From Methanobacteriota archaeon (lineage in GTDB: Archaea > Thermoplasmatota > Poseidoniia > Poseidoniales > Poseidoniaceae): a DNA stretch of 14,658 nucleotides. The DNA lies in contig NZMN01000052.1 in the NCBI GenBank assembly GCA_002694525.1, positions 9,437-24,094 on the forward strand, given 5' to 3'. A model generated the notes under the pieces. That model had not been told where the DNA came from. It did not search any database and saw only the letters and a list, made by a program, of their open reading frames with translations. Positions 1 through 14,658 of this stretch are shown piece after piece (within the stretch, counting starts at the first letter, position 1; each line of letters begins with the position of its first letter). The position numbers and the translations under genes are program-made.

Positions 1-861
1 GGCGTCGACTCCACCGTTGCAGCCGTCATTGCCAACAAAGCCGTGGGCAATCTGCTCCACTGCGTGTACGTTGACACCGGCTTCATGCGCAAGAACGAGA
101 CCGAACAAATCGAAGCCCTTCTTGAGGAACAAGGAATCAACCTGATCACCGTCAAGGCGGCTGACCGATACTTCGAGGCCCTCAAGGGCGTCACAGAGCC
201 CGAGCAAAAACGGAAGGTCATCGGGGAATTGTTCATCCGAATCTTTGAGGATGAGCAAAAAAAGTGCGGTGCGAAGTACCTCGTTCAGGGCACGATTGCC
301 CCCGACTGGATTGAATCGGGCGGTGGTGTCCGTGATACCATCAAGTCTCACCACAACGTCGGTGGCCTGCCTGAGGACATGACGCTTCAGGTTGTTGAAC
401 CCCTTCGTGAACTCTACAAAGACGAGGTTCGTGAGCTTGCACGAAAACTCGACATCAACGTCGCAGAACGCCAGCCATTCCCCGGACCCGGTCTTGCCGT
501 CCGCACCCTTGGAGAGTTAACGCCGGAGCGCGTGGCCGTCGTCCGGGAAGCGTGTGCGATCGTTGAGGAAGAATTTGAAGCGGCCGCTGAACGAGGTGAG
601 ATGGACCTGCCATGGCAGTACTTCGCTGCGTTGTTGCCCGTTCGCAGCGTGGGTGTCCACGGCGACGTGCGCGCCTACGGTGAAACCATTGTTGTTCGAG
701 CGGTCCAGTCCATGGACGGCATGTCCGCTCGGTACTCTGAGATTCCCCACAAAACGCTGCAAAAAATCAGCACGCGCATCACCAACACGGTGAAGGGGGC
801 GGTCAACCGAGTCGTTTACGACATCACGCACAAGCCACCGGGCACCATCGAGTGGGAGTGA
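1..861 (+). CDS. guaA: GMP synthase, ATP-pyrophosphatase (PPase) domain/subunit, 5'-truncated by window edge
   Basis: Amination of XMP to GMP with ATP and ammonia, the last step of GMP synthesis; cytoplasmic. The reading frame is open from base 1 and begins inside the PP-loop (GVDSTVAA, normally preceded by SG), so only the extreme N-terminus is missing. The 286 visible residues carry family hallmarks: YVDTGFMRKNE (~23-33), APDWIESGGG followed by IKSHHNVGGLPEDM (~100-127), the RQPFPGPGLAVR dimerisation-domain motif, and the C-terminal KPPGTIEWE ending. Many archaea encode the glutaminase (GuaAa) and ATP-PPase (GuaAb) as separate genes; whether a glutaminase is fused upstream cannot be seen here. 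The stop lies 47 bases before the likely start of the protease gene on the same strand. The identification is very secure; only the split or fused state is open. Confidence 0.96.
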   Translation, partial: GVDSTVAAVIANKAVGNLLHCVYVDTGFMRKNETEQIEALLEEQGINLITVKAADRYFEALKGVTEPEQKRKVIGELFIRIFEDEQKKCGAKYLVQGTIAPDWIESGGGVRDTIKSHHNVGGLPEDMTLQVVEPLRELYKDEVRELARKLDINVAERQPFPGPGLAVRTLGELTPERVAVVREACAIVEEEFEAAAERGEMDLPWQYFAALLPVRSVGVHGDVRAYGETIVVRAVQSMDGMSARYSEIPHKTLQKISTRITNTVKGAVNRVVYDITHKPPGTIEWE

Positions 862-908
862 ATCCCTCCGGGCATACCTTCTTCAACGAGACTCAGCGAG
901 GGTTCTGC

Positions 909-2303
909 ATGTCCGCAATGGATGCAACCGACGCTATCGTCGTTGGCTTGCTGGTGGCCGATGAGGTCGGAAATGCGAGAAAGACACGCATCCTCGGATC
1001 CGTGTTCGTGGTTTTGCTCCTGATTGGCCTCATGATCGGTGCGAACGCCCTCTTGGGCGAAAAGGCGTCCGACACGTCCTTTGTTGAGGGTCAGCCGACC
1101 TCAACCAACTGGCGACCCTACTCCGTGGTGGCGCCCATTGACACGGGCATCAACGTGTACCACGATCACTTCCGCACCAACGAAACCTACCCGGATTGGC
1201 TCCTCGATGGTTTGGGCGTGACCAAAACATGCACGCCGACCTTCAACGGCACCTGGCAGGAGCGATTTGACGCCGACAAAGCCACCTGCTGGGACACCAT
1301 CACCACCTCCGACATCGTTTACTTCAAGGGCACAAAAATCATCGGAACGTCCCCCGATGGCAACACGGACGTCCACATTCTCGACGACCCCTCGGACGGT
1401 CACGGAACGGCCGTGACCGGAGCGGTGCTCGATGCAAACCCCGACTCGGTGATTTTCTTCGTTGAGGGTTTCTCGACTGCAGCCGTCCTGGCTGCGGGGA
1501 ACCAGCCCCTGGTCGACATCGTCACCACGTCCTTTGGCGCCCCCGGTTCCCTGCCCGTTCCCGGCATTGAAACAGGAACCCACCAAACCGTTGTCGTGAA
1601 CAACAAAATTCACACCGGCGCTGCCGATAACACGCCTTCGCCGGCGGTTCAAGACGCAACCGCCGGTCCACCGTGGTCCATCGGCATCGCTGGCTACGCC
1701 GAGGAAGGCGACGACCAGAAGGAAACCATGAGCGGGTCGTACCCCGACATCGCTGCGGACTGGACGCAGATGCTTCCGAATCACGACGACGTGGACGGCT
1801 ACCACGAAACCTCCGGTACTTCGTTTGCCACGCCGAGGACGGCGGGGATTCTGTCCTTTGTCCTCGACCACCTTCGCGGGGAGGTAGGGGATTTCGGTTC
1901 CGGTGCATCGTCCGTGGACCGAAACGGTTCCCTCGTTCAAGGTGTCTGGCCCGATTCCAACCCCAACGCAGGAACGGAGGCAAGCATCACCAACGCAGAG
2001 GTTCGCAACGCCCTCAACCTTTCCGCTTGGTATCCATCGTTTACCACGTGGGATCCCTCGGCTGGAACCATGCCCATTTCGCCCGTGGCGCCCTGCACTC
2101 AGGTCGGCTGGGGCGTGGTGAATTTGTCCAACATCCAGCCCATGATCAAGCACCTTAACGGCACCGAACCCATCCCCGATCGTCCGGGCGATGTCGTCCT
2201 TTGCATGCAGATCAATCAAGAAGCTCGAGAAGCGTACTGGGGTGTCTACCCCTCTGAGGAACGGCCCGACCGAATCCTGCAGACGGCCTCTCGGGACGAG
2301 TGA
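909..2303 (+). CDS. membrane-anchored subtilisin-like serine protease (S8 family)
   Basis: Predicted extracytoplasmic endopeptidase of 464 residues. One hydrophobic segment near residues 28-49, after a short RKTR stretch, fits an uncleaved signal anchor. The catalytic triad is readable: Asp78 in PIDTGIN, His165 in DGHGTAV, and Ser305 in SGTSFATPRTAG. Asn241 in GAADN is a candidate oxyanion-hole residue. The Asp-to-His spacing (87 residues) is longer than in classical subtilisins, implying an insertion with two cysteines (Cys108, Cys127). I see no recognisable I9-type propeptide. I chose ATG 909 because GCGAGGG sits just upstream and the protein then starts shortly before the anchor. A GTG at 852 is in frame but would overlap guaA and add 19 unlikely residues. 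The family call is strong; the substrate is unknown, and linkage to guaA is probably positional. Confidence 0.9.
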   Translation: MSAMDATDAIVVGLLVADEVGNARKTRILGSVFVVLLLIGLMIGANALLGEKASDTSFVEGQPTSTNWRPYSVVAPIDTGINVYHDHFRTNETYPDWLLDGLGVTKTCTPTFNGTWQERFDADKATCWDTITTSDIVYFKGTKIIGTSPDGNTDVHILDDPSDGHGTAVTGAVLDANPDSVIFFVEGFSTAAVLAAGNQPLVDIVTTSFGAPGSLPVPGIETGTHQTVVVNNKIHTGAADNTPSPAVQDATAGPPWSIGIAGYAEEGDDQKETMSGSYPDIAADWTQMLPNHDDVDGYHETSGTSFATPRTAGILSFVLDHLRGEVGDFGSGASSVDRNGSLVQGVWPDSNPNAGTEASITNAEVRNALNLSAWYPSFTTWDPSAGTMPISPVAPCTQVGWGVVNLSNIQPMIKHLNGTEPIPDRPGDVVLCMQINQEAREAYWGVYPSEERPDRILQTASRDE

Positions 2304-2457: not shown

Positions 2458-2464
2458 TTTATCA
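2458..2464 (-). promoter_or_regulatory. possible TATA-like element for tRNA-Asn
   Basis: The minus strand reads TGATAAA, followed by GGGGAGG, centred about 26 bases upstream of the mature tRNA 5' end. That is the spacing expected for an archaeal TATA box and start site. It overlaps the stop codon of the thymidine phosphorylase gene. The match to a TATA box is imperfect, so read-through from the upstream operon followed by processing is an equally good explanation. Confidence 0.3.
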
Positions 2465-3793
2465 CGCCTTCGTTGATGCAAAATCAATCACTTCAAGCAG
2501 CCGTTCGGTCTGCTTCGGTTCATCATCGCCGACGGTGCACATCGCTTTGAGCAACCTGACCTCTGCCTCCTCCAGGGGTTGCGTGTGATGAAACGTGAAC
2601 AGCGGCTTGTTTTTGTCAACGTAGGCACCGAAGGGGGTCTGGATGACGAAACCAACGTGCGGGTCGATGTCGTCGTCCAATGCAAACCGTCCCGCACCGT
2701 GCCTGCGAGCAAGCTGCGCCATGGCCATGGCATCGTAGTCGTTCACGTACCCCGAGGCTTCAGCCAGCATTGTGGTCTGGTGATTGGCCACGCCGAGCAC
2801 CTTTTCGGGTGTGGAAATCAAGGTTTTCGCCGTGCTCGGATCAACGCCTTGCTGGACGCACATCGCCCGGAACACTTCGAGCGCTTTTCCGTTGTTTAAC
2901 ACCGACTCCATTCGTTTTCTCCCCTCTGAAAGGTCAACATCGTCAAAGGACATGGCCAGCAGTTGAGCGCCTTGGAGGACGACCAGTTCTCGCGTATCCG
3001 CTGACCCCTCACCCTGCATGACCTTGATGCTGCCTGCAACCTCCAAGGCATTACCCACATGGGTGCCGATCGGTTGGGACATTGCCGTGAGTTGGGCAAC
3101 GGTGCGTATGCCCAGGCCCTCGGCTGTCCTGACCATTGAGTGAGCCAGCGTACGCGCCTCCTCGGTTGTTTTCATGAAGGCGGCGGACCCGGTTTTGACA
3201 TCGAGCACCAAGGATTTGAGCCCCTCCGCCGCCTTTTTGGAGATGATGGATGCGGTGATGAGGGGAACACTGTCGATGGTGTCGGTCACGTCCCTCAGTG
3301 CGTAAAGCACACCGTCCGCAGGGGCGATGGCGTCGTTTTGAACCGCAATGCAGCACCCAACGGTCTCAACGGCGAGTTTCATGGATTCTGGCGTCAGCGC
3401 GCAGTCGAATCCAGGAATGGATTCGAGCTTATCGATGGTGCCTCCGGTGTGGCCCAAACCTCGACCGGCGAGCATCGGGACGCGACAGCCGCACGCAGCC
3501 AGGGCCGGCGCCAACACGAGCGACATCTTGTCGCCCACGCCCCCCGTGCTGTGTTTGTCCACCACCGGAACACCCGCGGTCCAATCAAGGTGGGCGCCGG
3601 AATCGATCATCGCTTTGGTCAGAATCACCGTGTCTTCCGTGGTCATGCCGTGCTTGTGAACGGCTTTGAGCCAGCGCGTGGCCGTCTCGGTTGAGATCGC
3701 TCCATCGGCGACCCCGTTTGCGAAGGCTCGAAGTTGCTCGGCGGGTTGCGGTACGCCTCCAACCACCGCTCGGATGAGGTCCTCGACGTTCAT
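2462..3793 (-). CDS. deoA: thymidine phosphorylase (pyrimidine-nucleoside phosphorylase family)
   Basis: Reversible phosphorolysis of thymidine (and probably deoxyuridine) to the free base and deoxyribose 1-phosphate; cytoplasmic, pyrimidine salvage or catabolism. The 443 residues match the length of bacterial DeoA rather than the longer archaeal AMP phosphorylase. Visible signatures are VVDKHSTGGVGDK (phosphate site, Lys80), AGRGLGHTGGTIDKLE (family signature, ~109-124), and ALRDVTDTIDSVPLITASI with Lys186, giving the base-binding set Arg167, Ser182 and Lys186. DVKTGSAAFM follows. The start at 3793 is preceded by GAGGGAG, a good ribosome binding site. It lies 9 bases after the stop of the oxygenase gene, so the two are probably cotranscribed and may act in one pathway. 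The bacterial-type form may have been acquired by transfer. Thymidine versus general pyrimidine specificity is not settled from sequence alone. Confidence 0.93.
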   Translation of the reverse strand: MNVEDLIRAVVGGVPQPAEQLRAFANGVADGAISTETATRWLKAVHKHGMTTEDTVILTKAMIDSGAHLDWTAGVPVVDKHSTGGVGDKMSLVLAPALAACGCRVPMLAGRGLGHTGGTIDKLESIPGFDCALTPESMKLAVETVGCCIAVQNDAIAPADGVLYALRDVTDTIDSVPLITASIISKKAAEGLKSLVLDVKTGSAAFMKTTEEARTLAHSMVRTAEGLGIRTVAQLTAMSQPIGTHVGNALEVAGSIKVMQGEGSADTRELVVLQGAQLLAMSFDDVDLSEGRKRMESVLNNGKALEVFRAMCVQQGVDPSTAKTLISTPEKVLGVANHQTTMLAEASGYVNDYDAMAMAQLARRHGAGRFALDDDIDPHVGFVIQTPFGAYVDKNKPLFTFHHTQPLEEAEVRLLKAMCTVGDDEPKQTERLLEVIDFASTKA

Positions 3794-3802
3794 CGGACTC
3801 CC

Positions 3803-4750
3803 TCAGATAAGGCCGATTTCTTTGAGGCGTTGATGCAGGTAGTCGCCTGCGGTGATGGAGGTGTACTCCGCTTCGCCTCCGGTCATTGCCACGAAGTCAG
3901 GGTGTGGCGTCAGGTCAATCTCGTTTCGGGGATGGACGAACATGGGCATTGAGTATCGGCGCGTGTTGGCGTCCTTCGGGTTCACCACCCTGTGGGTGGT
4001 GGATTTGAACAGGCCGTTGGTGAGGTTCTGGAGCATATCACCGGAATCAACGATGATTGCGTCCTGATCACCCTTGACCTGAATCCACGAACCGTCGTGG
4101 TCCATGACCTCCAGACCGTCGGCCGTGGCGGTCACCAAGAGCGTGATGAAATTGATGTCCTCGTGGGCAGCGGAACGGACGGCGCCTTCGGGGGTGTTTG
4201 CGTCCAAAGGCGGGTAGTGAATCATGCGCATGATGGTGTTTCCTTCCTTGGACATGTTGGGGAGCCAATCGTTCGGCTTACCGAGGTAAATTGAACAGGC
4301 TGAGAGCAGATGCATCGCCAGCGCCTCCATGCCCTCGAACAGATGTTCGGTGACGGACTGGAACCCTTCGACGTGGGCGGTGGGCCAGATGTTTTGCGGG
4401 TAGGTCGGTACGGTTCCATCAAGCGGGTAGGGGCGGCCGGCCTGCCAGAATTCTTTGAGATCGGGTGCTGGGTTGTCCTTGGCGTGCTCAACGCCGAAGG
4501 CCGTGTAGCCGCGCTGGTGGCCAATCTCAGGTTGCAGATAGGTGCGCTTGGTTTGCTCGTCCATGTCGAAGAAAGCATCGCACTGTTCGTAGGTGGCATC
4601 AATCAGTTCCCGCGGGATTCCGTGATGCGTGAGGGCGAAGAAGCCGATGTCCTTCAGTGCATCACCGACTTCAGAAACAAAGCGATCTCGGTCGGCCTGA
4701 TTGGCCGATGTCGCCAATCGAAAGTCGATGGAGGGAATGCTCCGACCCAT
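3803..4750 (-). CDS. Fe(II)/2-oxoglutarate-dependent oxygenase, isopenicillin N synthase-like
   Basis: Predicted non-haem iron dioxygenase of 315 residues, close to the family norm. The N-terminal DIOX_N-type region includes GDALKDIGFFALTHHGIP (~29-46), typical of the isopenicillin N synthase/plant-type group. The double-stranded beta-helix core holds the metal ligands His196 and Asp198 (AAHEDINFITLL) and His253 (STTHRVVNP). Arg265-x-Ser267 (RYSMPMF) is the expected 2-oxoglutarate carboxylate site. The presence of R-x-S indicates 2-oxoglutarate as co-substrate. I chose ATG 4750, 5 bases after the stop of the Bax-inhibitor-like gene; the longer 348-residue reading would overlap that gene. It sits directly upstream of thymidine phosphorylase. 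This suggests, but does not prove, a pyrimidine or nucleoside substrate, as in fungal thymine 7-hydroxylase of the same superfamily. Many homologues have unknown substrates. Confidence 0.9.
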   Translation of the reverse strand: MGRSIPSIDFRLATSANQADRDRFVSEVGDALKDIGFFALTHHGIPRELIDATYEQCDAFFDMDEQTKRTYLQPEIGHQRGYTAFGVEHAKDNPAPDLKEFWQAGRPYPLDGTVPTYPQNIWPTAHVEGFQSVTEHLFEGMEALAMHLLSACSIYLGKPNDWLPNMSKEGNTIMRMIHYPPLDANTPEGAVRSAAHEDINFITLLVTATADGLEVMDHDGSWIQVKGDQDAIIVDSGDMLQNLTNGLFKSTTHRVVNPKDANTRRYSMPMFVHPRNEIDLTPHPDFVAMTGGEAEYTSITAGDYLHQRLKEIGLI

Positions 4751-4755
4751 GGGTC

Positions 4756-5520
4756 TCAATCCCTGTAGGCATTCAACTTGGAGAGCAGACGCAAGGTTTC
4801 GATGTAGATCCAGATCACGGAGATCAGGATGCCGAAGGCGGCGTACCACTCCATGTTTTTGGGTGCGCCGTAGCGGGTTCCGGATTCAATGAATCCAAAA
4901 TCACTGATGAGCGTCAACGCTGCAACGACCAAAATGAAGCACGTGATGCCGATCCCGATGGGTCCGGAGCTGTGCAGGAAGGGGACGTCGTACGGCGACA
5001 CCAACTGCAGGACAAAGGACGTGAGGTACAGGAGCATGATGCTCACGACCAAGCCGAAGATGATCTTGTTGAAGGCGGGTGTGGGCCGGATGATTCGGGA
5101 GGCGTACATGACGTACATCGTTCCGGTGATGGCCATGGTTCCAAACACAGCCTGGAGCGCAATGCCCTTGTACGCCGTCAGTTCGAGGGCCAGGGACATG
5201 GAACCGACCGCCATGCCTTCGAGGAGAGCGTACAGGCTCATCAGCGCCACTGGATTGGTGGGTCGCGTGATGAACACCACGAGGGCGATGATGAACCCGC
5301 CGAGGAAACCAATCCCCATGAAAGCGGACACGTAGAGTCCACCGTTGCCGTTGTTGATGGCGTTCATGCACAACACGGCCGAAACGAGGGCGCTGACCAC
5401 CGTGAGCGAGAGCAGGTAGCCAATTTTCTTCATGCTGCCTTCGACCGTCATGCGGTCGGTGCCGGTGAGGTTGCTCCAGAACTTGCTCGACAGAACGGGG
5501 TTGCTGCTGCGGATTTCCAT
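4756..5520 (-). CDS. Bax inhibitor-1/YccA-like integral membrane protein
   Basis: A 254-residue protein with about seven hydrophobic segments between residues 33 and 247. The N-terminus RSSNPVLSSKF, the MTVEG motif at 24-28, the ALLEGMAVGS segment (~98-107), SGPIGIGI (~185-192), SDFGFIESG (~206-214) and GAPKNMEWYAAFG (~218-230) match the bacterial/archaeal Bax-inhibitor-1-like family (the BaxI_1 type). The BI-1 superfamily includes pH-sensitive calcium-leak channels; for this subfamily the function is not established. I chose ATG 5520 because the conserved family N-terminus begins there. The upstream in-frame start would overlap the preceding gene. It lies 25 bases after the giant LTD/PLD gene and 5 bases before the oxygenase gene, so it is probably in the same operon. 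The family call is confident; the role in this operon is unknown. Confidence 0.9.
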   Translation of the reverse strand: MEIRSSNPVLSSKFWSNLTGTDRMTVEGSMKKIGYLLSLTVVSALVSAVLCMNAINNGNGGLYVSAFMGIGFLGGFIIALVVFITRPTNPVALMSLYALLEGMAVGSMSLALELTAYKGIALQAVFGTMAITGTMYVMYASRIIRPTPAFNKIIFGLVVSIMLLYLTSFVLQLVSPYDVPFLHSSGPIGIGITCFILVVAALTLISDFGFIESGTRYGAPKNMEWYAAFGILISVIWIYIETLRLLSKLNAYRD

Positions 5521-5545
5521 GACCGTCGCTCGGCGAGGTCCTGTT

Positions 5546-8500
5546 TCAATGTTGCTCTGAGCGTGTGTGTTGAGCGACCTGTTCCTGGTAGTAGGTGACC
5601 AGCTGGTCCATGGTCCAGCCTTGGGCAAGGTATTGCTCCACCATGTCGGCCGTCCAGCCAGGAACTTTGGCCAGCATTTCCGGTGAGACGCCCGAACGGC
5701 TGGCGTTCAAAACCGGTTGCTGCCAGTTTTCGTTGCCGACCACGCCGGTGCTCACCTCGGCAAAAGCGGCTTCACTGATGGCGTCCTTGACGCTCTCGGA
5801 ATCCGATCGCATGCCTCGAAGCACGACGTACGCACCGCCTGAGAGAATCAACGCTGCGATCATCAACATCAGGAAGAAGGATTGAGCCCCATCACCGGCG
5901 ACGTTTTCGGTGCTGTCGCCGACCAGGTCTGCACGCTGGTCCGAAGAGCAGCCCTGTGCATCGGTGGCCACGCCGGGCGCCGTATCGGGGCAGTCGTCTG
6001 CGTCGTTCACCACGCCGTCATCGTCTTGATCGTTGTCCACCACGGTGGTGTCGCCTCCGTCGGTCTCGTCCACGGGTTGAATGTCGACGCCGGCCAGGTC
6101 GCACCCGAGCACTTCGCTGTCGTTGGTACCGTCTTGGTCTGCGTCCCAAAGGGTCAGTGCGGCGTTTGGTTCAATGTCGTCCATGCTTGAATTGAGGGCA
6201 CTGGCTTGCGCCCAAGCGACCTCGAGGTCGTCGGTGATGCAGTCGCCGTCGGTGTCGGCCAGGTTGGGGTCGCCGCCGTGGAGTTGCTCAGCGAAGTTGG
6301 TCAATCCGTCCTGGTCGGCATCCAGCATTGATTCGTCGGACAGCGGGTCGCCAGCAACGCTGCGCATCGTTCGGTTCAGCCCGTGGGCCACCTCCCACGC
6401 ATCGGTCAGACGGTCCTGATCGCTGTCCGTGGTGTTGTCCAATCGGTTCCAATCCTCGTACCATGATTCAATGAAGACGCTCGCAACCGATTCGCTCGAA
6501 AGCACGAGACCCATCTCTCGGTTGCGTACAAGGGCCGAATCACCCCAGTTGATGGAGGACACAAGGACGTGCTCTCCGTCCACAATGATGCCTTTGTTGT
6601 GCAGTTTTGTCACCTTATCGTCACTGCTCATCACGACGGCAGCCGTGTCGTAGCCCAAGGTGTGGTTCCAGTCTTCGTTGAAACGGTCGACAGCGTTCTG
6701 GATGTCTTCGTCAAGGTACGCCCCGTTGAGAATCAGGCGCAACCGAACGTCTCGCTGGGCTGCGGTTTCGAGGGCAGCGACGATGGGGTTTTCCCCCCAG
6801 CCCCACGACCAGTCCATGTCAAGGTACTGAAGCGAGAGAAGAATCTCTTCTTCAGCGGTGTCGAGAACGGCCACGAGGTCGTCGATGCAGTTGTCCGGGC
6901 ACACCAGCAGCTGCGCGTCGAGTTGACCTTCGATGCTGGGGGCGGTTTCACCCACGATGGCGGACGTTGAAGGCATCGTCCAGCCGGTCGGAGCATCGCT
7001 GGCCATGACCGGCGTGATGTGTTCTCTCGCTTGGTTTTCGTCAAAGGCGAGATGAGCGGCCACCATGGAGGCCAAACCGGCATCGTCGACGATCACGCCC
7101 CAGTCTCGATTTCCAGCATCGCCCGGAGCGGGATGCGAGGAGGAGCGCCAGTTTCCGGACCCGATCCACACGCTGGCGTTGTCTTTCACGGCAACTTTGC
7201 TGTGAATGTAGGCGTAGGGGTTCTCACCCGTATCGCCAAACCAACTCACCTGAACGCCCGCTGAGAGGAGTTCAGTGGCCATGCCTCGTTGCGTATCGAG
7301 GTCGTATTGTTTCCACCAACTGTCACCGTAGTCAAGCACGACCGTGACGTCAACACCTCGATTTTGTGCGTCGATCATGGCTTGGACCAGATGGACCTCC
7401 TGAAGGAGGTACATGTGGACGTGGAGTGAGGTCGAGGCGCTCTCAATCCAGGCCAGAAGGTCGGTCAGGCCGTGTTCCGGTCCCAGAAGCGGCGTGACCG
7501 ACGCCGTGGTGCTGATGCTCGTGTTCAAGCAGAAGGTGCTTCCACCAAGCCGGCTCCACTGCTCATGCCAGTCCGCAACGGTGTCGGTGTCGGGTGTATC
7601 GCCGCAACCGCTGCCGCGCAGATAGATGAGGTTGTCAAGGCTGGCCAGCGGCTCGGCGAGGGCGATACCGTTCCACCCCGAGACGGACACGGGTCCGTTT
7701 CCGTACACGATGGTGTCGACTTCGGCACCCGTGCCGTCGAGGAGTTGGAGTGCAGCACCGGAGTTGGGGAAGTAGAAATTGCGGTCGAGCGCCCCGTCAA
7801 CGTCCACCACAGCCCCGTCTTCGTAGACCCGAACGGCGTCGGCATCGTTCGCGAGGAGGACGCTTGAACCGGGCTGGATCATCAGGTCGTTCACCGTGGC
7901 GTTGTAGGACGTCATGGAACCGGTTGTGGTGCGCATGGTCCAACCGTTGAGCACGGCCAATTTGTCCCCTTGGTTGCTGATTTCAATGAACTCCATGTCG
8001 CTGGAGATGTCGGTGGAAGCGGACGGCATGAATCTCGTGAAACGAAGGTCGTCCTTGGTGGCGAAATCCGCCGGGTTTGGTTCGCCCTGCCCGGGCGTTG
8101 GCCAGAGCGTGTGTTGCCAGTCGTCGCCCTCCAGTTCTCCCGGCATGAGGGTTTGGCAGTCCGTGATGACCGTCCAGGACGCACTGTCAACGGACACGCC
8201 GTCCGGGTCGAGAAGGTCAAACGCATCACCGAGACCCGTCAGGACGTATTCGTCCATGACAAAAACGGCTCGTTCGTCCGGGTTCAGAACGACTTTCGCC
8301 GTTTGGTTTCCTTCGGTCCAGAGGCTGTCAAGGCGCATGAAGCGGCGCTCGCCTTCGGCGTTGACCACCGACCATCGGCTGATGTTCAACGGGGTGGCGC
8401 CGGTGTTGTGGACCTCCACCCAGTCCTCGGTCGGTTCGATGGAGTCGTCGTTGCAGTACGGCAGGACCTCGGTGATGGCAAGGTCGGTTGAATCGGTGTA

Positions 8501-10432
8501 GGGTGCCCAAACTGGGTTCACTTCCCCTGGGGTGGCCCACGCCGATAGAATCCAGTTCCCGGTGGCGTTTGAAGCGTCGGGCCCAACGCCAGCGTGGGTG
8601 CTGTTGGGAGCGATGAGGGATTCTCCTTCAACCGTGTCGGACCATGAAACGGTGTCGACGGCGGCCCCGTTGATGTCGACCAGTCCGATGGAGTCCGAGG
8701 AGGTGTGCTTGAGGTAGAAACTGCTCGTCCCGTTCAAGGCAATGAGCACGGCCTCGCCCCCCTTGACGACGGTCGTGTCCTGCAAGGGCATGTTGAATTC
8801 ATGCAGGGTCAGCGACCGAGACGCCGCCTTGAGCTTCCATCCTGCCAAGTCAACGTCCATCGTTCCGTAGTTGTAGAGTTCAATCCATTCACCCATGGGC
8901 CACATTTGACTGTCCGAGCCCTCAGCGTCGGGCAGCAGTTCGGAAAACCGAACCGTGGTGGCGGAAGGCATGCTCCCAGGTTCGGGCTGACCGGGGGTTT
9001 TCCACGCTGCGGGCGTCCACGAATCGGAGGGGTTGCTGCCTCGGATGAGGGCCATGTCCTCGCCGTAATCCGTGGTGTAATCGGCCGTGTCCACGACGGT
9101 GCCGGTCATGTCTCGCAGGAAAACATGGTTGTAATTGTCCCAGAGCTGCGTGTAACTTGTGAACTGGAGAAGGCGCCGTCCGTCGGGGTCGATGATGGTG
9201 GCGCCTTGGGTGGAGTTGAACACCAAAGTGCCAGGGTCGAAATGGGTTATGTTGCCCAACCCGTCCATGATGCTCCACCCCATCAGGTCGATCGATGTGG
9301 TCCCCGTGTTGTGAATCTCAATCCACTCGCCGTCCGGGAAGGTGGCCCCGTCGTTGGTTGCGTTGGGCAGGATTTCCGTCAGGTGCACATCGCCCACCTG
9401 TCGAGCCATCAGTTCCATCGGCAGAGGATTCATCTCCTCCGGGGTGGGGTAGGGTGCGCTGACCCACGGCGTGTTGGGCTGACCTGCGTCCATCAGCGCA
9501 AAGCCCTCGACGGTGGAGGTCCACGAAATCTCTTGGGATTTGCTTCCGTTCGGCCACTTCAGCGTGAGGCTTTCAACACCGTTGTTGAGCACGCCGTAGT
9601 TGCTCGTTCCGTTGACCGCCACGATGCGGTGTTGCCCGGGGCTGATGAGCATGCTCTGGGAAGCGTTGACGAGGTGCGTGCTGTTGAACGAAAGGACGTT
9701 GCCTGCGGCATCCTCAATGCTGTAGCCCGTGAGGTCGATGTCGGAGGTGCCGGTGTTCAAGATCTCAACCCATTCACCGCCAGGCCACGAGTCGGTGTCG
9801 TAGCTGGGCCACGAATTGGCCATCGCTTCGGTCATGATGATGTCGCCGGGAATCACGTTGTTCGAGACCGTCGCCGTGTTGACCTGACCCGGTGTTGGGT
9901 TGTTGGTTTGAACCCAGTTTGCGGTGGCGCTGCTCGGGTCTTGCTGGTAGCTCTTCCCCGACACGACGCTTCCCCAAGTGGCCTGGTGGAGGTTGTTGTT
10001 GTTGCTGTCCACGAGCGTCATGGACATCCCGGTGTTGGTCATGTAAAAGTTGGAATTTCCGTTTCGAGCGATAACGACGTACTCCCCTGCGCTGATGGTC
10101 CAGGTTGAGGCGTTGCCGCTCTGGTAGCCGACGATGGTGGTCGAATCAAAATTCAGCGTCTGCGATGCGGTGTTCGTGACCTTCCATCCGGTCAAATCCA
10201 CGTCGATGGTTCCGTTGTTGTACAGCTCCAACCACTCGCCTCCGGGGTACGCAGCATCGTCGTAGCCGTTCGGGTTGGGGATGACTTCGTTGATGCAAAC
10301 AAAGCCCGTGCACGCCGTTGAGCGACCCGCTGTGCGCATTTGCTCGGGTTCCGCCAACGTCGCACCGAGCGGCGAGGTGAGGGAGAGCAGGAAGAGCATG
10401 ATGAGGCTGGTTGCGGTCAAGGTCTGTTTCAT
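5546..10432 (-). CDS. giant surface protein: six lamin tail domains, tandem HKD phospholipase D/nuclease domains, type-3 calcium repeats, C-terminal anchor
   Basis: Predicted secreted, membrane-tethered hydrolase of 1628 residues. A signal peptide (MKQTL, hydrophobic ~5-20) is followed by six lamin-tail (LTD) repeats over ~42-945. Each of the first five opens with an (L/I/M)xE(V/I/A/L) strand, then GEW(L/V/I)E(L/I) and NxG, and closes near a TPG-like turn. Two HKD domains follow. The first has His1077-x-Lys1079-x4-Asp1084 with GSGNW; the second has His1278-x-Lys1280-x4-Asp1285 with SSINW. Both motifs are intact, so an active PLD-type phosphodiesterase is expected. Asp-rich repeats (DxDxDG, ~1335-1500) resemble thrombospondin type-3 calcium sites. 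One transmembrane helix (~1518-1540) and an ~88-residue tail end the protein. ATG 10432 is preferred to GTG 10441 as it starts the signal peptide cleanly. Substrate (DNA, RNA or phospholipid) is not determined by sequence. Many Asn-x-Ser/Thr sequons are compatible with surface glycosylation. Confidence 0.92.
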   Translation of the reverse strand: MKQTLTATSLIMLFLLSLTSPLGATLAEPEQMRTAGRSTACTGFVCINEVIPNPNGYDDAAYPGGEWLELYNNGTIDVDLTGWKVTNTASQTLNFDSTTIVGYQSGNASTWTISAGEYVVIARNGNSNFYMTNTGMSMTLVDSNNNNLHQATWGSVVSGKSYQQDPSSATANWVQTNNPTPGQVNTATVSNNVIPGDIIMTEAMANSWPSYDTDSWPGGEWVEILNTGTSDIDLTGYSIEDAAGNVLSFNSTHLVNASQSMLISPGQHRIVAVNGTSNYGVLNNGVESLTLKWPNGSKSQEISWTSTVEGFALMDAGQPNTPWVSAPYPTPEEMNPLPMELMARQVGDVHLTEILPNATNDGATFPDGEWIEIHNTGTTSIDLMGWSIMDGLGNITHFDPGTLVFNSTQGATIIDPDGRRLLQFTSYTQLWDNYNHVFLRDMTGTVVDTADYTTDYGEDMALIRGSNPSDSWTPAAWKTPGQPEPGSMPSATTVRFSELLPDAEGSDSQMWPMGEWIELYNYGTMDVDLAGWKLKAASRSLTLHEFNMPLQDTTVVKGGEAVLIALNGTSSFYLKHTSSDSIGLVDINGAAVDTVSWSDTVEGESLIAPNSTHAGVGPDASNATGNWILSAWATPGEVNPVWAPYTDSTDLAITEVLPYCNDDSIEPTEDWVEVHNTGATPLNISRWSVVNAEGERRFMRLDSLWTEGNQTAKVVLNPDERAVFVMDEYVLTGLGDAFDLLDPDGVSVDSASWTVITDCQTLMPGELEGDDWQHTLWPTPGQGEPNPADFATKDDLRFTRFMPSASTDISSDMEFIEISNQGDKLAVLNGWTMRTTTGSMTSYNATVNDLMIQPGSSVLLANDADAVRVYEDGAVVDVDGALDRNFYFPNSGAALQLLDGTGAEVDTIVYGNGPVSVSGWNGIALAEPLASLDNLIYLRGSGCGDTPDTDTVADWHEQWSRLGGSTFCLNTSISTTASVTPLLGPEHGLTDLLAWIESASTSLHVHMYLLQEVHLVQAMIDAQNRGVDVTVVLDYGDSWWKQYDLDTQRGMATELLSAGVQVSWFGDTGENPYAYIHSKVAVKDNASVWIGSGNWRSSSHPAPGDAGNRDWGVIVDDAGLASMVAAHLAFDENQAREHITPVMASDAPTGWTMPSTSAIVGETAPSIEGQLDAQLLVCPDNCIDDLVAVLDTAEEEILLSLQYLDMDWSWGWGENPIVAALETAAQRDVRLRLILNGAYLDEDIQNAVDRFNEDWNHTLGYDTAAVVMSSDDKVTKLHNKGIIVDGEHVLVSSINWGDSALVRNREMGLVLSSESVASVFIESWYEDWNRLDNTTDSDQDRLTDAWEVAHGLNRTMRSVAGDPLSDESMLDADQDGLTNFAEQLHGGDPNLADTDGDCITDDLEVAWAQASALNSSMDDIEPNAALTLWDADQDGTNDSEVLGCDLAGVDIQPVDETDGGDTTVVDNDQDDDGVVNDADDCPDTAPGVATDAQGCSSDQRADLVGDSTENVAGDGAQSFFLMLMIAALILSGGAYVVLRGMRSDSESVKDAISEAAFAEVSTGVVGNENWQQPVLNASRSGVSPEMLAKVPGWTADMVEQYLAQGWTMDQLVTYYQEQVAQHTRSEQH
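6443..6910 (-). other. second HKD (PLD) domain within the giant protein
   Basis: Residues ~1175-1330 of the LTD/PLD protein. The domain opens with a helix and the strand EEEILLSLQYL and carries HNKGIIVD, the second HxK(x)4D motif, followed by SSINW. Two conserved cysteines (CPDNC) precede it. With the first HKD domain it can form one complete two-motif active site, as in single-chain PLD enzymes. Confidence 0.88.
7043..7495 (-). other. first HKD (PLD) domain within the giant protein
   Basis: Residues ~980-1130 of the LTD/PLD protein. A core pattern of STSLHVHMYLL, then ARG-like NRGVDVTVVLD, leads to YIHSKVAVKD, the first HxK(x)4D motif, and WIGSGNW. This order is typical of PLD-type nucleases and phospholipases. 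Confidence 0.88.
7598..10309 (-). repeat. six tandem lamin tail domain (LTD) repeats
   Basis: Protein-level repeats of about 150 residues within the giant gene. Diagnostic opening segments fall near residues 47-85, 198-238, 350-387, 495-533, 653-687 and 797-831. Repeats 1-4 are the most alike (PGGEW/PDGEW/PMGEW, then DxDLxGW or DIDLTGY); 5 and 6 are more divergent (EDWVEV, MEFIEI). The decline toward the catalytic domains suggests stepwise duplication. Confidence 0.82.
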
Positions 10433-10450
10433 GGTGGTCACGTCCGGTGT

Positions 10451-11953
10451 TCAAATGAAGCCAAAACTGTCGAATTTTTGGGCGAAGGTGTAGATCATGA
10501 TGGGCACGAGAATGATGCCCATGCCGTGAGAGCGACGGATGCCGATTCGAGGGGGCAGCAGACCGATGATGGTGCCGACGATCAGGACGCCGATACCGAC
10601 AAAACCGGTCGACAGCCAAACGAGGGCGACGACGAAGATGATGACGCCCATCACCATTTGTTGCAGCGGAATGGCGGCGTGCAATCGAAGCATTCCCATT
10701 CCAACATAACGCATCATGGGCATGGCGAGAAGGCCAGCGGCGAGGGTGACCGCCAACAAGCGAATGAAATCGGAGGTTGGTTCAAGCGAGGACCACGTCT
10801 CAATGGGATACATCATCTTCAACGCCAAGGTTGCACCTGAACGTGAACGGCTGATGATGTAGAGGAAACCGAGGACCATCACGGTAACCGCCGTGTTGGT
10901 CGCCGAAAGAATGGCGATGATTTCGAGGTCCTGTTTGGTTTGGGGGCCTTCAACACCCTCCTCGGCTTCGGCTTTGGCAATTTCCAGGAGTTCATCGTCG
11001 CTCAGTTCGGTCAACCGACGCGTTTCCCAATCCATGCCGAAACCTTGCTTCCCCTGGGCTTTGGCGGCCAAGTTTCGCCCGCCCATCACGAGGACGGTTG
11101 CCTGCGAGGCGGTCATGCCGGGCAGCACCCCCATGGAAGCACCTGCGACACTCGACCAAAAGCAAGGGACGACGAGGGGCCGGGTGGGCGGAAGGGCCCA
11201 GTTCTCCCGCTGTGGGGGTAGGTGAGACGTTGTTGCGTAGATGTCGAGAAGATTGGCGATGCCGAACAAACCGGCCAGGCTCGGCAGCAGCAAGCTGGCA
11301 TCGGGCATGCCGATCGGTGAGCGTGCGGGCAAGGTGAACACGCCCCAACCGTACATGCCCGCCAGCAGGAAGAAGGCCGTGGCTGCGAGAAAACCTGCAA
11401 ACCGGGAGTCGCGACCGAGCCATCCTCCGGTTAATTTTTGCATCCACATCGGCCAGTCGAGTCGCGTGGTCTCGGTGGCCAAGAGCAAAAACGAGATCGA
11501 AAGTAAAACGAAGGGAAGGACGGAGCGGAGATCGTCGTACCATCCAAGTTCAGGGCCGAACGCGATGCGAGCCAGCACGATCAACGGCAACGACAAGAAC
11601 AGCCCCAACTGGGAACCCCGGGCCGACCATGCAACACCTCGGGCAGCGTTACCCGAGAGCAGCATCCGGTGGCCGGGAAGCAGCGACAGCGCAGTGTCGC
11701 CGTCCGGTGCCCCGATGAGGGCGGACGGGATGTAATTCAGGAAGGTGTGAACGGTCCCGGTCGATACGATGATGGCGGCCACCGAAGCCAGGGGTATGCC
11801 CAAATCCAGCAGAGCGGGCGAAAGCGCCAGCAAAATGAGCGCGACGTTGTTGACGTGAAAACCGGGGATGAGCCCCGTCAGGGACCCCAGCATGACGCCG
11901 AAGAAGAGGGAGCCCAGCAGCCACGCCAAGTCCAAAAAATACCCTTCCAACAT
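10451..11953 (-). CDS. TctA-family (DUF112-type) permease, archaeal form
   Basis: A 500-residue polytopic membrane protein with roughly a dozen hydrophobic segments. Two inverted-repeat-like motifs mark the TctA family: LTGLIPGFHVNNVALILL (~25-42) and GVLPGMTASQATVLVMGG (~275-292). The FLNYIPSALIGAPDGDTALSL segment and the C-terminal GLLPPRIGIRRSHGMGIIL stretch match the archaeal branch. An acidic hydrophilic loop lies at ~297-343. In bacteria TctA is the large permease of tripartite tricarboxylate transporters and works with a small TctB and a periplasmic TctC binding protein. Neither is seen in this window. The archaeal branch commonly lacks them, and its substrate is unknown. The start at 11953 follows GAGGTGA, a good ribosome binding site, 9 bases after the upstream stop. 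The gene overlaps none and lies 18 bases before the giant LTD/PLD gene. Confidence 0.86.
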   Translation of the reverse strand: MLEGYFLDLAWLLGSLFFGVMLGSLTGLIPGFHVNNVALILLALSPALLDLGIPLASVAAIIVSTGTVHTFLNYIPSALIGAPDGDTALSLLPGHRMLLSGNAARGVAWSARGSQLGLFLSLPLIVLARIAFGPELGWYDDLRSVLPFVLLSISFLLLATETTRLDWPMWMQKLTGGWLGRDSRFAGFLAATAFFLLAGMYGWGVFTLPARSPIGMPDASLLLPSLAGLFGIANLLDIYATTSHLPPQRENWALPPTRPLVVPCFWSSVAGASMGVLPGMTASQATVLVMGGRNLAAKAQGKQGFGMDWETRRLTELSDDELLEIAKAEAEEGVEGPQTKQDLEIIAILSATNTAVTVMVLGFLYIISRSRSGATLALKMMYPIETWSSLEPTSDFIRLLAVTLAAGLLAMPMMRYVGMGMLRLHAAIPLQQMVMGVIIFVVALVWLSTGFVGIGVLIVGTIIGLLPPRIGIRRSHGMGIILVPIMIYTFAQKFDSFGFI

Positions 11954-11962
11954 GCCGTCACC

Positions 11963-13714
11963 TCAGGATTGTGCGCTCTCGTGTTGTTCTCGGTCCGTTC
12001 GACCGTCGTCGTCGCTGTCTTCGGAGTACGGTGATGTGCCGATCTGATCTTCCAGCGTATCGCCGAGGCGGTCGCCGTCGCTGTCCAGCACGTCCGCTTG
12101 GTCGAGGGTGTAGACCAAACTCATGCCGTCGTCACTTTGCACCTGACGAAGCCGGCCCGCCCACGTCATGGACTGGTTGAGGTGAAGCTCGTCCACGCCA
12201 ACGGCGTTTGCTTGGAGATTCAGCACCACCGAATCGTTTGAGCCTTCTCGGACCAAATGCCACTGGCCGTCGATTTCGGTGGCCTTGCCGTTGAGGAGCA
12301 CGTTTTGATCTCGATTGTAGCTCCATTGCGTAGCGCCGTCGTCCCACAACAGCGTTCGTGCGCTCGGCGTCGTTCCCAACCTGTAGTCGTGCACGACCAG
12401 GCGTATGCGCATGTCTTCGTCGTCCCAAGCAACGGAGACGTTGGCGATGATGTTTTGGCCGGTTTCAAGCCAGACGGTGCGGGGTCCGGGGATGGATGCA
12501 GCAACGGTGGTCCAGCCGGGTGTGTAGGACGCTGCGTCCACGAAGTAGGCTTCTTCGTTTTCGACGCCGGGTTCCACGGCGTACTTCACGTACGCCGAAA
12601 GCGTGTAGGTTGCGTCGGGGTCGGCCACCATACCGACCGGGTCTGCGGAAAGCATGGCGAGTAGGCGGACGGGGGTCTCAGGGTTGATGAGCGTGGGGGA
12701 TGCACCTTCGTTGGCGTCGATGCACCAACCGCCCTCGGACTCCGACCACAGCAATCGGCCTTCAACCGTCTCCACGGTGTTGTGGACGGAACGGTTTCTG
12801 TCCCTTTCCCGGTCTGCTTCGCTGGGCAGCAGGCAAATGCTGGCACCGCTGGGGCCGTACAGGCGCCAGATGTCCGAACCGTTGGCCAGTGTGCCGGTCA
12901 TGGTGACGGTTTGACCGGATTGGTAACTCCAGGTCGCCTGCGCATTCCAGTCGAGTTGGGGCGGGCTGACCTCGTGGTTGCGATCCACGCCGATTTCAGG
13001 TCCCTGCACTTGCAAACTCCAACGCAGGTCTCGAACCTGGTAGCTGAGCATGCCTTGGACCTCGACCTTCGAACTGGCCTCCACCCACTCGCCGATGGCG
13101 GAACGAATGATGAGGTGCATTTGGTGTTCGGAGTTACCGTAGTTGGGGTGGTCTCCGAGATAAGCGGAGGTAAAGGTGGCGTCGGGCGCAATGGATTCTC
13201 CGATGAAGCCCGTGAGTCGAATCACTTCACCGGCGTAAGCGGCAGGGTCTTGGGCCACATCGGCGATGGCGAGCGTCTCGACCTCCGGCAGGTCATCGGA
13301 TGTCCACTCCATCGCTCCCGCACCGAGGGATTGAATCCAAATTCGTCCGTCGTATTCAATGACGTCACCCATGATGGTCACCGTCGTGCCGATGGGTGGC
13401 ATGTTCCCGGGGCGGTACCAACGGGATTCGACCACACCCGTACCGTCGTCGATGATGGCGTCAACCCGATCGTCGCCCGACGAGTAAGGGTCCTCAACCC
13501 ACGAGATGAGGGTGCCTTCCACCTTGACGACCTCGTTCTTGTATTCCAGGAGCTGGCGGACCTGAATCACCTCAGGTTCGCGGACGTAGGCGTACCAGTT
13601 GAGGGTGGCCACGAGAAACATGGCGAGCGCAAACATGACCCAGAGTTGCTGCCCTCGTGTCTCGGGGTCATCGTTGGTGATGCGGTCCATGAGTCCCTTC
13701 ACCGCGTCGGCCAT
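11963..13714 (-). CDS. membrane-anchored OB-fold protein with C-terminal type-3 calcium repeat
   Basis: A 583-residue protein, first gene of the minus-strand operon. A short N-terminal tail is followed by one transmembrane helix (~24-43); the rest is probably outside the cell, as argued by the C-terminal aspartate repeat. Residues ~58-137 have an OB-fold pattern (VVKVEGTLISW, IIDDGTGVVESRWYRP, IGTTVTIMGDVIEYDGRIWIQS) like tRNA-anti/nucleic-acid-binding OB domains. Residues ~161-240 repeat the pattern more weakly, and ~265-340 and ~465-540 may be further copies. DSDGDRLGDTLED and DSDDDGRTDRE (~544-576) resemble thrombospondin type-3 calcium sites. The ATG at 13714 has no clear ribosome binding site. 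I do not recognise a named family for the whole protein. Nucleic-acid binding is plausible from the fold but other ligands are possible, since OB folds also bind sugars and proteins. Confidence 0.82.
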   Translation of the reverse strand: MADAVKGLMDRITNDDPETRGQQLWVMFALAMFLVATLNWYAYVREPEVIQVRQLLEYKNEVVKVEGTLISWVEDPYSSGDDRVDAIIDDGTGVVESRWYRPGNMPPIGTTVTIMGDVIEYDGRIWIQSLGAGAMEWTSDDLPEVETLAIADVAQDPAAYAGEVIRLTGFIGESIAPDATFTSAYLGDHPNYGNSEHQMHLIIRSAIGEWVEASSKVEVQGMLSYQVRDLRWSLQVQGPEIGVDRNHEVSPPQLDWNAQATWSYQSGQTVTMTGTLANGSDIWRLYGPSGASICLLPSEADRERDRNRSVHNTVETVEGRLLWSESEGGWCIDANEGASPTLINPETPVRLLAMLSADPVGMVADPDATYTLSAYVKYAVEPGVENEEAYFVDAASYTPGWTTVAASIPGPRTVWLETGQNIIANVSVAWDDEDMRIRLVVHDYRLGTTPSARTLLWDDGATQWSYNRDQNVLLNGKATEIDGQWHLVREGSNDSVVLNLQANAVGVDELHLNQSMTWAGRLRQVQSDDGMSLVYTLDQADVLDSDGDRLGDTLEDQIGTSPYSEDSDDDGRTDREQHESAQS

Positions 13715-13749
13715 GCTCTGCCGTGCCGTTGACCATGCTTAGGCGTTGT

Positions 13750-13780
13750 CTTCTCGGTCGCTCGTGCTGATTCCGAGAAG
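13750..13780. promoter_or_regulatory. 8-bp inverted repeat, candidate operator
   Basis: CTTCTCGG (13750-13757) and CCGAGAAG (13773-13780) are perfect reverse complements separated by 15 bases, giving half-site centres 23 bp apart, about two helical turns. The right half ends three bases before the TATA box of the HD gene and overlaps where a TFB recognition element would sit. A dimeric regulator bound here could control both divergent transcription units. No regulator gene is visible in the window. Confidence 0.45.
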
Positions 13781-13782
13781 GG

Positions 13783-13790
13783 CTATAAAG
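13783..13790 (+). promoter_or_regulatory. archaeal TATA box for the HD-domain gene
   Basis: CTATAAAG, preceded by a purine-rich stretch (GAGAAGGG) that fits a TFB recognition element. The expected start site about 25 bases downstream falls near 13811, two or three bases before the ATG at 13814. The transcript would therefore be essentially leaderless, which agrees with the absence of a ribosome binding site before this ATG. Confidence 0.65.
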
Positions 13791-13813
13791 AAACGACTGG
13801 ACGGCAATACACC

Positions 13814-14658
13814 ATGAAGGGTCGAGACCGCGTCATTCGCGACGAGATTCACCGGGACATCTTGGTCCCCGCCTCTCATGCAGCCATCATTGACACGCCG
13901 GAGTTCCAGCGCTTGCGCGCCATTCAACAACTGTCGACCTGCGAATACGTGTTCCCTGCCGCCAACCACAACCGCTTTGCTCACTCGTTGGGCGCTTACC
14001 ACCTTGCAGGGTGTTTAGCGACGCACCTCAACGAAGTTCATCCGGGTTTGATGTCGGAAGAGGACGTGGAACTCGTTCAGCTTGCAGCGTTGCTTCACGA
14101 CATCGGCCACCCACCCTTTTCCCACCTGCTTGAAACGCCGCGCGTGTACGCCACCTTCCGTTCTCACGAGGCATGGGGGCGTGACATCCTCGAATCCACG
14201 TCCACGTCCATCGGCAACGCCGTCCGGGAGGTGCTCGGAGAGCGGCGTTTGGGTCGACTGTTTGCTCTCATGGACGGAGCCGACGAGCACGACGGCGAAC
14301 CGATTCCTCGTTTTATGAAAGAAATCGTCAGCAGCCAACTCGACGTTGACCGCATGGACTACATGATTCGCGATCAGGCCAACACCGGCGCTCAGATCGG
14401 TGGCTTCGACAGCGCCCGGGTCATCCGGGCTCTGCGGGTCGGCAGCGACGGTCGAATGTACGTCAAGCGGTGGGGTCTACCGGCCATTGAGGCCTACTTG
14501 GTCACGCGCTATCACATGTACCAGCAGGTCTACTTCCACAAGGTCAACATGCTGACGCAGGCCTACCTTGTCAACATGCTTGAGCGGGCCAAGGAACTGG
14601 CGATGAGCGGCGACCTCGAGGTCTCTGAAGAGCTGGCGCACATGCTGCTCAACGAGTC
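13814..14658 (+). CDS. HD-domain phosphohydrolase (SAMHD1/dNTPase-like), 3'-truncated by window edge
   Basis: Predicted metal-dependent phosphohydrolase; 281 full codons are visible and the frame runs off the window without a stop. The sequence follows the SAMHD1-like HD family. An N-terminal segment (EIHRDILVP, TPEFQRLRAIQQL) precedes the metal ligands His57 (NRFAHSLG), His95-Asp96 (LLHDIGHPPFSH) and Asp177 in SSQLDVDRMDYMIRD. Family members hydrolyse dNTPs to deoxynucleosides and triphosphate, which would connect to thymidine phosphorylase, but many prokaryotic members have unknown or other nucleotide substrates. The ATG at 13814 is supported by the TATA box about 27 bases upstream. The gene is divergent from the OB-fold operon and shares its 99-bp control region. 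The family is secure, the exact substrate is not. Confidence 0.93.
   Translation, partial: MKGRDRVIRDEIHRDILVPASHAAIIDTPEFQRLRAIQQLSTCEYVFPAANHNRFAHSLGAYHLAGCLATHLNEVHPGLMSEEDVELVQLAALLHDIGHPPFSHLLETPRVYATFRSHEAWGRDILESTSTSIGNAVREVLGERRLGRLFALMDGADEHDGEPIPRFMKEIVSSQLDVDRMDYMIRDQANTGAQIGGFDSARVIRALRVGSDGRMYVKRWGLPAIEAYLVTRYHMYQQVYFHKVNMLTQAYLVNMLERAKELAMSGDLEVSEELAHMLLNE

Follow-up and report, generated by a model that had tools for sequence, protein, structure and literature searches.

The question raised by this locus is whether a compact archaeal gene block that places a surface nuclease-like protein, a membrane permease and a nucleoside phosphorylase side by side serves the use of external DNA and, if so, what crosses the membrane. 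The window, i.e., the whole stretch of 14,658 nucleotides analysed in the present study (G000:C52:9437-24094), belongs to a genome of Poseidoniales (Marine Group II; 1.60 Mb in 65 contigs, 80.7% complete), and it carries a minus-strand block of six genes, from 13714 down to 2462, in the order anchored OB-fold protein, TctA, exported LTD-HKD protein (named for its lamin-tail domains and HKD motifs), BI-1-like protein, Fe(II)/2-oxoglutarate (2OG) oxygenase and thymidine phosphorylase (DeoA). An earlier note, made from the sequence alone, had proposed these genes as a candidate nucleic-acid (or phosphodiester) scavenging operon. Its theme holds, owing to the nuclease-like HKD enzyme, the OB partner and the conservation of the unit, and its mechanism has to be changed. 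We favour, with moderate confidence and with every activity inferred, the reading that the operon serves to take up seawater DNA and to salvage it, by means of an OB-TctA pore, a surface nuclease and nucleoside salvage.

A four-gene core in a six-gene block

The coordinates bear out the six same-strand genes with gaps of 5-25 bases that had been described: successive genes are 9, 9, 25, 5 and 9 bases apart when the ATG codons at 5520 and 4750 are taken as starts. The gene families named at that time were likewise recovered, by Pfam and NCBIfam matches and, for the OB folds, from a predicted model.

The comparison of gene order across relatives, which the earlier note had proposed, was made by tblastn (E 1e-5) in fetched loci of the two families of the order, the window's own (f1) and the other (f2); the counts that need the LTD-HKD gene exclude five loci (four f2, one f1) in which its place is masked. 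The full six-gene order was seen, as far as the contigs extend, in 26 GTDB contigs found via the LTD-HKD protein. The slowest-changing of the six proteins is TctA, whose best segments are 81-99% identical in these contigs, against 52-89% for LTD-HKD. The OB gene directly precedes TctA in 20/21 f1 loci (543 bases lie between the aligned parts in the remaining one) and in 16/16 f2 loci. TctA is followed by LTD-HKD within 400 bases in 21/21 f1 and 8/19 f2 loci, and seven further f2 loci with one gene of about 900 codons between the two bring the f2 total to 15/19. LTD-HKD is followed by DeoA within 2.6 kb in 22/22 f1 and 19/24 f2 loci. The f2 misses (four loci for the former and five for the latter adjacency; three genomes, two of them counted twice) all belong to a single genus, g12. 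The arrangement is not due to chance, since it recurs in relatives with LTD-HKD identity down to about 31%.

Different counts were obtained for the other two genes. BI-1 follows LTD-HKD in 19/23 f1 and 0/20 f2 loci, and the oxygenase precedes DeoA in 23/24 f1 and 3/23 f2 loci (four of these 23 are masked before DeoA); such a search could overlook copies of BI-1 or the oxygenase that have diverged strongly. Because the adjacency counts differ between the two families in this way, BI-1 and the oxygenase are regarded as lineage extras, and the set of six is reduced to a core of four genes, encoding the anchored tandem-OB protein, TctA, exported LTD-HKD and DeoA, whose order is kept in both families with the exception of g12. 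Synteny within f1 alone is weak evidence, because the flanks are syntenic there too: an HD-domain gene diverges from the OB gene in 17/17 f1 versus 0/10 f2 loci with room for it, and guaA lies within 1.5 kb of DeoA in 10/20 f1 versus 0/25 f2 loci. Stronger evidence comes from f2, where the core persists.

The OB-TctA pair

The first gene of the block (11963..13714, minus strand) encodes an anchored tandem-OB protein of 583 amino acids, with an N-terminal transmembrane helix, about five OB barrels and an acidic tail of the DxDxDG type. No Pfam or NCBIfam match was obtained for this protein; its predicted structure is a row of OB folds, it has one hydrophobic stretch, and two f2 orthologues matched PF01336 (cut-off 27), one over the cut-off (28.0 bits) and one under it (17.3 bits). 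The second gene (10451..11953, minus strand) encodes a multi-pass membrane protein of the TctA family (PF01970, 141.9 bits against a cut-off of 28.9; arCOG04469 type), the proposed DNA import pore. It is the only PF01970 gene found in the incomplete window genome, and the family is also present in Methanocaldococcus jannaschii, used as a control. TctB or TctC partners were absent from the ten window proteins scanned with Pfam, the remaining genome not having been searched for them.

Fifty TctA loci of other Thermoplasmatota (L128-L177), 44 of them scorable, served as an outgroup set. Of the 44, 36 have an anchored OB gene upstream of TctA, immediately before it in 33 and 170-240 bases away in three; without the seven of these 33 loci that had served in profile building, the figures are 26/37, or 29/37 with the more distant three. 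OB-profile matches numbered 36 among 1075 outgroup open reading frames, every one of them being the OB gene next to TctA, and the outgroup profiles are related to the OB family of the window (hhalign E 7e-8 and 2.5e-5). When 12 outgroup loci were searched with all of the operon proteins by tblastn, TctA alone was matched, and neither LTD-HKD nor DeoA lay beside it. Judging from these comparisons, the OB-TctA pair is older than the four-gene core, and the anchored OB protein is the oldest neighbour of TctA. As a separate observation, the TctA family has been described as mostly stand-alone, yet it has an OB gene upstream in most of these loci.

The nature of the TctA cargo is suggested by work on methanogens. 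In Methanococcus maripaludis, deletion of either MMJJ_13020 (OB fold, single transmembrane helix) or MMJJ_13030 (TctA-like, 11 transmembrane helices) abolishes natural transformation, which is rescued in trans, and a secreted thermonuclease is likewise essential; the TctA homologue is also essential in Methanoculleus thermophilus (PMC10133366). The same report states that clear TctB/TctC homologues are lacking in archaea and that a homologue of ComEC has yet to be identified in those that are naturally competent, for which the TctA-like protein was proposed instead. Since M. maripaludis cannot be transformed without a like OB-TctA pair, the cargo of TctA in the window is probably DNA. The import of cleaved products, as put forward in the earlier note, therefore has to be revised: TctA is probably no nucleoside carrier.

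The exported LTD-HKD protein

The third gene (5546..10441, minus strand) encodes a protein of 1631 amino acids that comprises a signal peptide, six LTDs, two HKD domains, acidic calcium-type repeats, a transmembrane helix and a short cytoplasmic tail. Pfam gave 266.6 bits for LTD in six stretches and 123.1 bits for PLDc_2 in two; hydrophobic stretches lie at residues 7-31 and about 1514-1544, the latter corresponding to the C-terminal transmembrane helix (5810..5902). Within the double-HKD catalytic region (residues 960-1345; 6407..7564), both HxKx4D motifs are intact in one chain. In the first (from residue 1080; 7145..7204), His and Asp are invariant in 23 sequences and Lys is kept in 22, the remaining one showing X; in the second (from residue 1281; 6542..6601), His, Lys and Asp are all invariant in 23 sequences.

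A profile search with the HKD region was led by Nuc, MitoPLD and NucT. None of the curated NCBIfam cut-offs was reached, the scores being 91 bits for DrmC (cut-off 133), 49.8 for NucT (297) and 34.9 for cardiolipin synthase (290), and the predicted HKD fold is closest, among solved folds, to the PLD3/PLD4 exonucleases at about 16% identity. Profile and model comparisons thus support an exported HKD enzyme that would resemble nucleases more than it does lipid enzymes. It was also observed that the cytoplasmic tail (5546-5810, minus strand) carries a PGW...GW motif, which is found in the compared g15 and g19 proteins as well.

DeoA and nucleoside metabolism

The last gene (2462..3793, minus strand) encodes a thymidine/pyrimidine-nucleoside phosphorylase (PRK05820, 446 bits against a cut-off of 269). 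TIGR02644 is also exceeded (425 against 409), and the narrower TIGR02643 is not (379 against 570.7); Glycos_transf_3 gave 163.9 bits and the thymidine phosphorylase structure 2wk5 gave 329 bits. A PNP-type phosphorylase is present in 55/60 genomes.

The lack of a visible nucleotidase, already remarked on as a weak link, was borne out on the scale of genomes: the classical 5'-nucleotidase C-terminal domain was matched in 0/60 genomes (10/14 controls matched), other phosphatase families not having been searched. CNT nucleoside carriers were also matched in 0/60 genomes (4/14 control genomes matched), other carrier families not having been searched. DNA as the cargo of TctA fits this lack of CNT carriers and classical 5'-nucleotidases.

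Joint retention and loss

Presence lists for 243 genomes contained TctA in 180, DeoA in 171 and LTD-HKD in 221 at E 1e-3, of which only matches with E <= 1e-30 were counted. Among 122 f2 genomes, 59 hold TctA, LTD-HKD and DeoA, four more hold the set with LTD-HKD masked, 46 have none of the three and 13 are partial, so that 109 genomes have either the whole set or none of it. Twelve of the partial genomes have two of the three genes (four genomes per kind), one has TctA alone, and none has DeoA or LTD-HKD alone; some of these cases may be explained by incomplete genomes and unseen masking. For TctA and DeoA in f2, both are present in 67 genomes, a single one in five and four, and neither in 46 (Fisher P 4e-23, uncorrected for shared descent). 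The same alternation occurs within genera, the numbers with both, neither and one of these two genes being 6/3/1 in g12, 8/2/0 in g16, 12/3/1 in g18 and 2/9/0 in g20; g19 has 7/0/2. Three g12 genomes keep TctA and DeoA without LTD-HKD. The locus is thus a real, order-wide and repeatedly lost module, whose genes are mostly kept or lost together.

Accessory and flanking genes

The BI-1-like membrane protein (4756..5520, minus strand; PF12811, BaxI_1, 209.1 bits) is an accessory seen in f1 only. The other accessory is an Fe(II)/2OG oxygenase of the isopenicillin-N-synthase type (3803..4750, minus strand; DIOX_N 96.8, 2OG-FeII_Oxy 72.7 bits), whose nearest structures are the bacterial 3oox (192 bits) and 3on7 (145 bits), both without assigned function. 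It scored 99 bits against thymine-7-hydroxylase (T7H), equal to the ethylene/succinate-forming enzyme. The substrate residues N87, E122, Y217 and N294 named in a report on the Neurospora crassa T7H (PMC4787775) have Q79, Q103, I199 and H273 as their aligned counterparts here. With all four replaced, a T7H role is unsupported; the metal ligands, most of the 2OG ligands and the counterparts of T7H R190 and F292 are kept, and the R190/F292 pair is not diagnostic, because it is also kept in several other aligned family members.

The intergenic region upstream of the OB gene (13715..13813) separates divergent genes and is a candidate operon promoter, with a TATA-like TTTATA at 13784-13789 on the minus strand; this motif is conserved in loci L002, L003, L007 and L013 and is absent from five more distant loci compared. 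The divergent gene (13814..14658, plus strand), truncated by the window end, encodes an HD-domain phosphohydrolase like SAMHD1-type dNTPases (PF01966 58.8 bits; 2q14 154.8, 2o6i 152 and SAMHD1 about 115 bits) and, as an f1 neighbour, is probably not part of the core. Downstream of DeoA lies a tRNA-Asn gene (2436-2362), past which an S8 peptidase and guaA are found on the opposite strand. The exported S8 peptidase (852-2303, plus strand), located between the tRNA gene and guaA, was matched in just 8/72 loci, all of near relatives.

Several peculiarities were noted in related loci. The protein of about 900 amino acids encoded between TctA and LTD-HKD in several f2 genera (L058:11706-14420, L084:7038-9821, L124, L126) stays with OB-TctA in g12, and two members scanned gave weak CD36-family matches (18.9 and 29.9 bits; cut-off 26.5). 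An acyltransferase/HGSNAT-like membrane protein is encoded after DeoA at L058:6276-7349, which was scanned, and the products at L064:8625-9728 and L084:14258-15382 are alike at the N-terminus. In g15 (L055, L056, L093), LTD-HKD and the oxygenase share one reading frame with one stop codon (TGA) between them, so that a fusion of the two was rejected. An LTD-HKD/DeoA fusion was also rejected, as the open frames of about 2,090-2,140 amino acids around DeoA in four g19 genomes are X runs from masked DNA, and these rows were dropped; the same masking accounts for the g4/g19 cases in which another protein had seemed to stand in for LTD-HKD.

Proposed mechanism and alternative explanations

According to the reading we favour, external DNA would be caught on the outside of the cell by the anchored tandem-OB protein together with the LTD array, and the exported two-HKD enzyme, whose catalytic motifs are in place, would cut or trim it. 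The OB protein would then pass a strand or oligonucleotides to the TctA-type protein, which, by analogy with the like pair of Methanococcus, would move DNA and not free nucleosides across the membrane. Cytosolic enzymes would degrade the imported DNA, and DeoA, given its family, would split thymidine to thymine and deoxyribose-1-phosphate; BI-1 and the oxygenase would be lineage-specific additions. Poseidoniales with the cluster thus probably take up and digest seawater DNA. A bolder proposal, plausible rather than favoured, is that OB-TctA acts as a DNA translocon in a wide range of archaea, functionally equivalent to ComEC and conserved as a pair across Thermoplasmatota, which in Poseidoniales would have been turned into a feeding device with lamin-tail capture, PLD3-like surface trimming, OB-TctA pull-in and thymidine phosphorylase, and would have been lost as a block by whole lineages.

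Four other explanations were considered. It is unlikely that, as in the model of the earlier note, external DNA is cut down to mononucleotides by the HKD enzyme, with TctA importing nucleotide anions or nucleosides for DeoA. The PLD3/PLD4-like fold would suit such digestion, DeoA and the PNP-type phosphorylase could use the nucleosides, and archaeal TctA homologues have been proposed as carboxylate transporters (PMC5898192); this model is opposed by the absence of the searched nucleotidase and CNT families, by the conservation of an OB protein as the partner of TctA, at a locus where TctB/TctC were not seen, and by the need for a like pair in plasmid DNA uptake by Methanococcus (PMC10133366). 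The last finding would also suit a machine for natural transformation, i.e., gene exchange, with the nuclease and DeoA as incidental neighbours or serving only to process what is left over, and so would the absence of both genes from beside TctA in the 12 outgroup loci. We consider this quite unlikely, as TctA mostly shares its retention and loss with DeoA and LTD-HKD, which adjoin it in all sampled Poseidoniales genera but g12.

Remodelling of envelope lipid or polymer, by an HKD phospholipase or transphosphatidylase with membrane-binding LTDs and DeoA as an unrelated hitch-hiker, appears very unlikely: nucleases lead the profile search, DrmC and NucT score above cardiolipin synthase, PLD3/PLD4 lead the fold comparison, and OB and DeoA would be left unexplained. 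Synteny without joint function, in a slowly rearranging region of streamlined genomes, is to be regarded as extremely improbable; the f1 neighbours HD and o16 are indeed syntenic too, but the flanks break up between the families while the core stays, and the group-wise holding or lack of the set in f2 also speaks against it.

The favoured reading, a DNA uptake and salvage machine, has its own difficulties. PLD3/PLD4 are ahead of lipid-active relatives by just about 2 to 10 Z units, and sharing their fold shows no function. The OB (pI about 4.3) and HKD (pI about 4.2) regions are strongly acidic, with which the binding of DNA is hard to reconcile unless divalent cations are present. An OB fold is no proof of nucleic-acid binding, given that one of the outgroup OB proteins also scores up to the cut-off of CcmE, an OB family that handles haem. 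The step in which LTDs trap DNA is weakened by Shewanella oneidensis ExeM, whose LTD is dispensable for the degradation of external DNA (PMC6085458). Orthology of the window pair to MMJJ_13020/13030 is putative, their likeness lying in families, neighbourhood and anchoring; M. thermophilus has no single clear MMJJ_13020 homologue according to the authors (PMC10133366), and the OB neighbour is missing at 8/44 outgroup TctA loci. The joint loss of neighbouring genes can be a single deletion. In g12, where OB-TctA with the CD36-like gene, LTD-HKD and DeoA lie at three separate places and are often still co-present, the genes are unlinked, and their joint loss is therefore not a single deletion, though the numbers are small. 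Separation of the genes in relatives, which the earlier note had named as a finding against its reading, is observed in this one of the genera compared. Finally, DeoC exceeded its cut-off in 0/30 f1 genomes, with one fragment of 20 bits, and was matched in 28/30 f2 genomes (14 over the cut-off), including genomes without DeoA; as the genomes are incomplete, a single absence carries little weight. Of the two fates of thymidine suggested in the earlier note, recycling or burning, the latter is weak for f1: the standard route probably does not serve there to burn deoxyribose-1-phosphate, and salvage of phosphorus, base or nucleotide is likelier there than carbon use.

As to how DNA passes the archaeal membrane, the locus gives independent genomic support to the TctA-like protein that was proposed for this role: the OB-TctA pair holds together across the phylum, and in marine archaea that have not been cultured it is accompanied by a nuclease-like protein and a nucleoside phosphorylase, which are mostly kept or lost along with it. 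If the favoured reading is true, DNA is consumed by many members of Marine Group II, which would bear on the cycling of phosphorus and nucleotides and on gene flow, and a defined set of genes would be at hand for testing the pore.

Comparison with known systems

This combination of genes was not found in the searches made of the open-licence literature, and its parts have several known counterparts. NucT of Helicobacter pylori, a PLD-family nuclease with a role in DNA salvage that is not known to carry an LTD, is likewise an HKD nuclease, and its model is matched by the first HKD domain of the window protein, at a score far under the curated cut-off. The endolysosomal exonucleases PLD3/PLD4 offer the nearest solved double-HKD folds and differ in being animal proteins of low identity with no LTD array (PMC8497607). 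ExeM is a secreted nuclease that joins LTD, OB-like and phosphodiesterase parts for extracellular DNA degradation, but its nuclease is of the EEP type and all of its parts reside in a single polypeptide (PMC6085458). Hvo_1477 of Haloferax volcanii is archaeal, combines a nuclease domain with a lamin-type tail and acts in extracellular DNA metabolism; its nuclease is a thermonuclease domain, and the DNA is used mainly as a phosphorus source (PMC3929857). The putative "DNA-degradation loci" of Ca. Izemoplasmatales also combine a large protein having lamin-tail, nuclease and nucleic-acid-binding domains with transporters; they are bacterial, the transporters are of ABC and phosphate types, phosphohydrolases are included, and the TctA-OB pair is not mentioned in the accessible part of the report (PMC8289736). 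The likeness to MMJJ_13020/13030 of M. maripaludis extends to the same two families, their neighbourhood (consecutive locus tags), the anchoring of the OB protein by a single transmembrane helix and the involvement of a secreted nuclease, whereas the window has about five OB barrels, and its operon also includes the putative nuclease, which is LTD-HKD rather than a thermonuclease, as well as DeoA.

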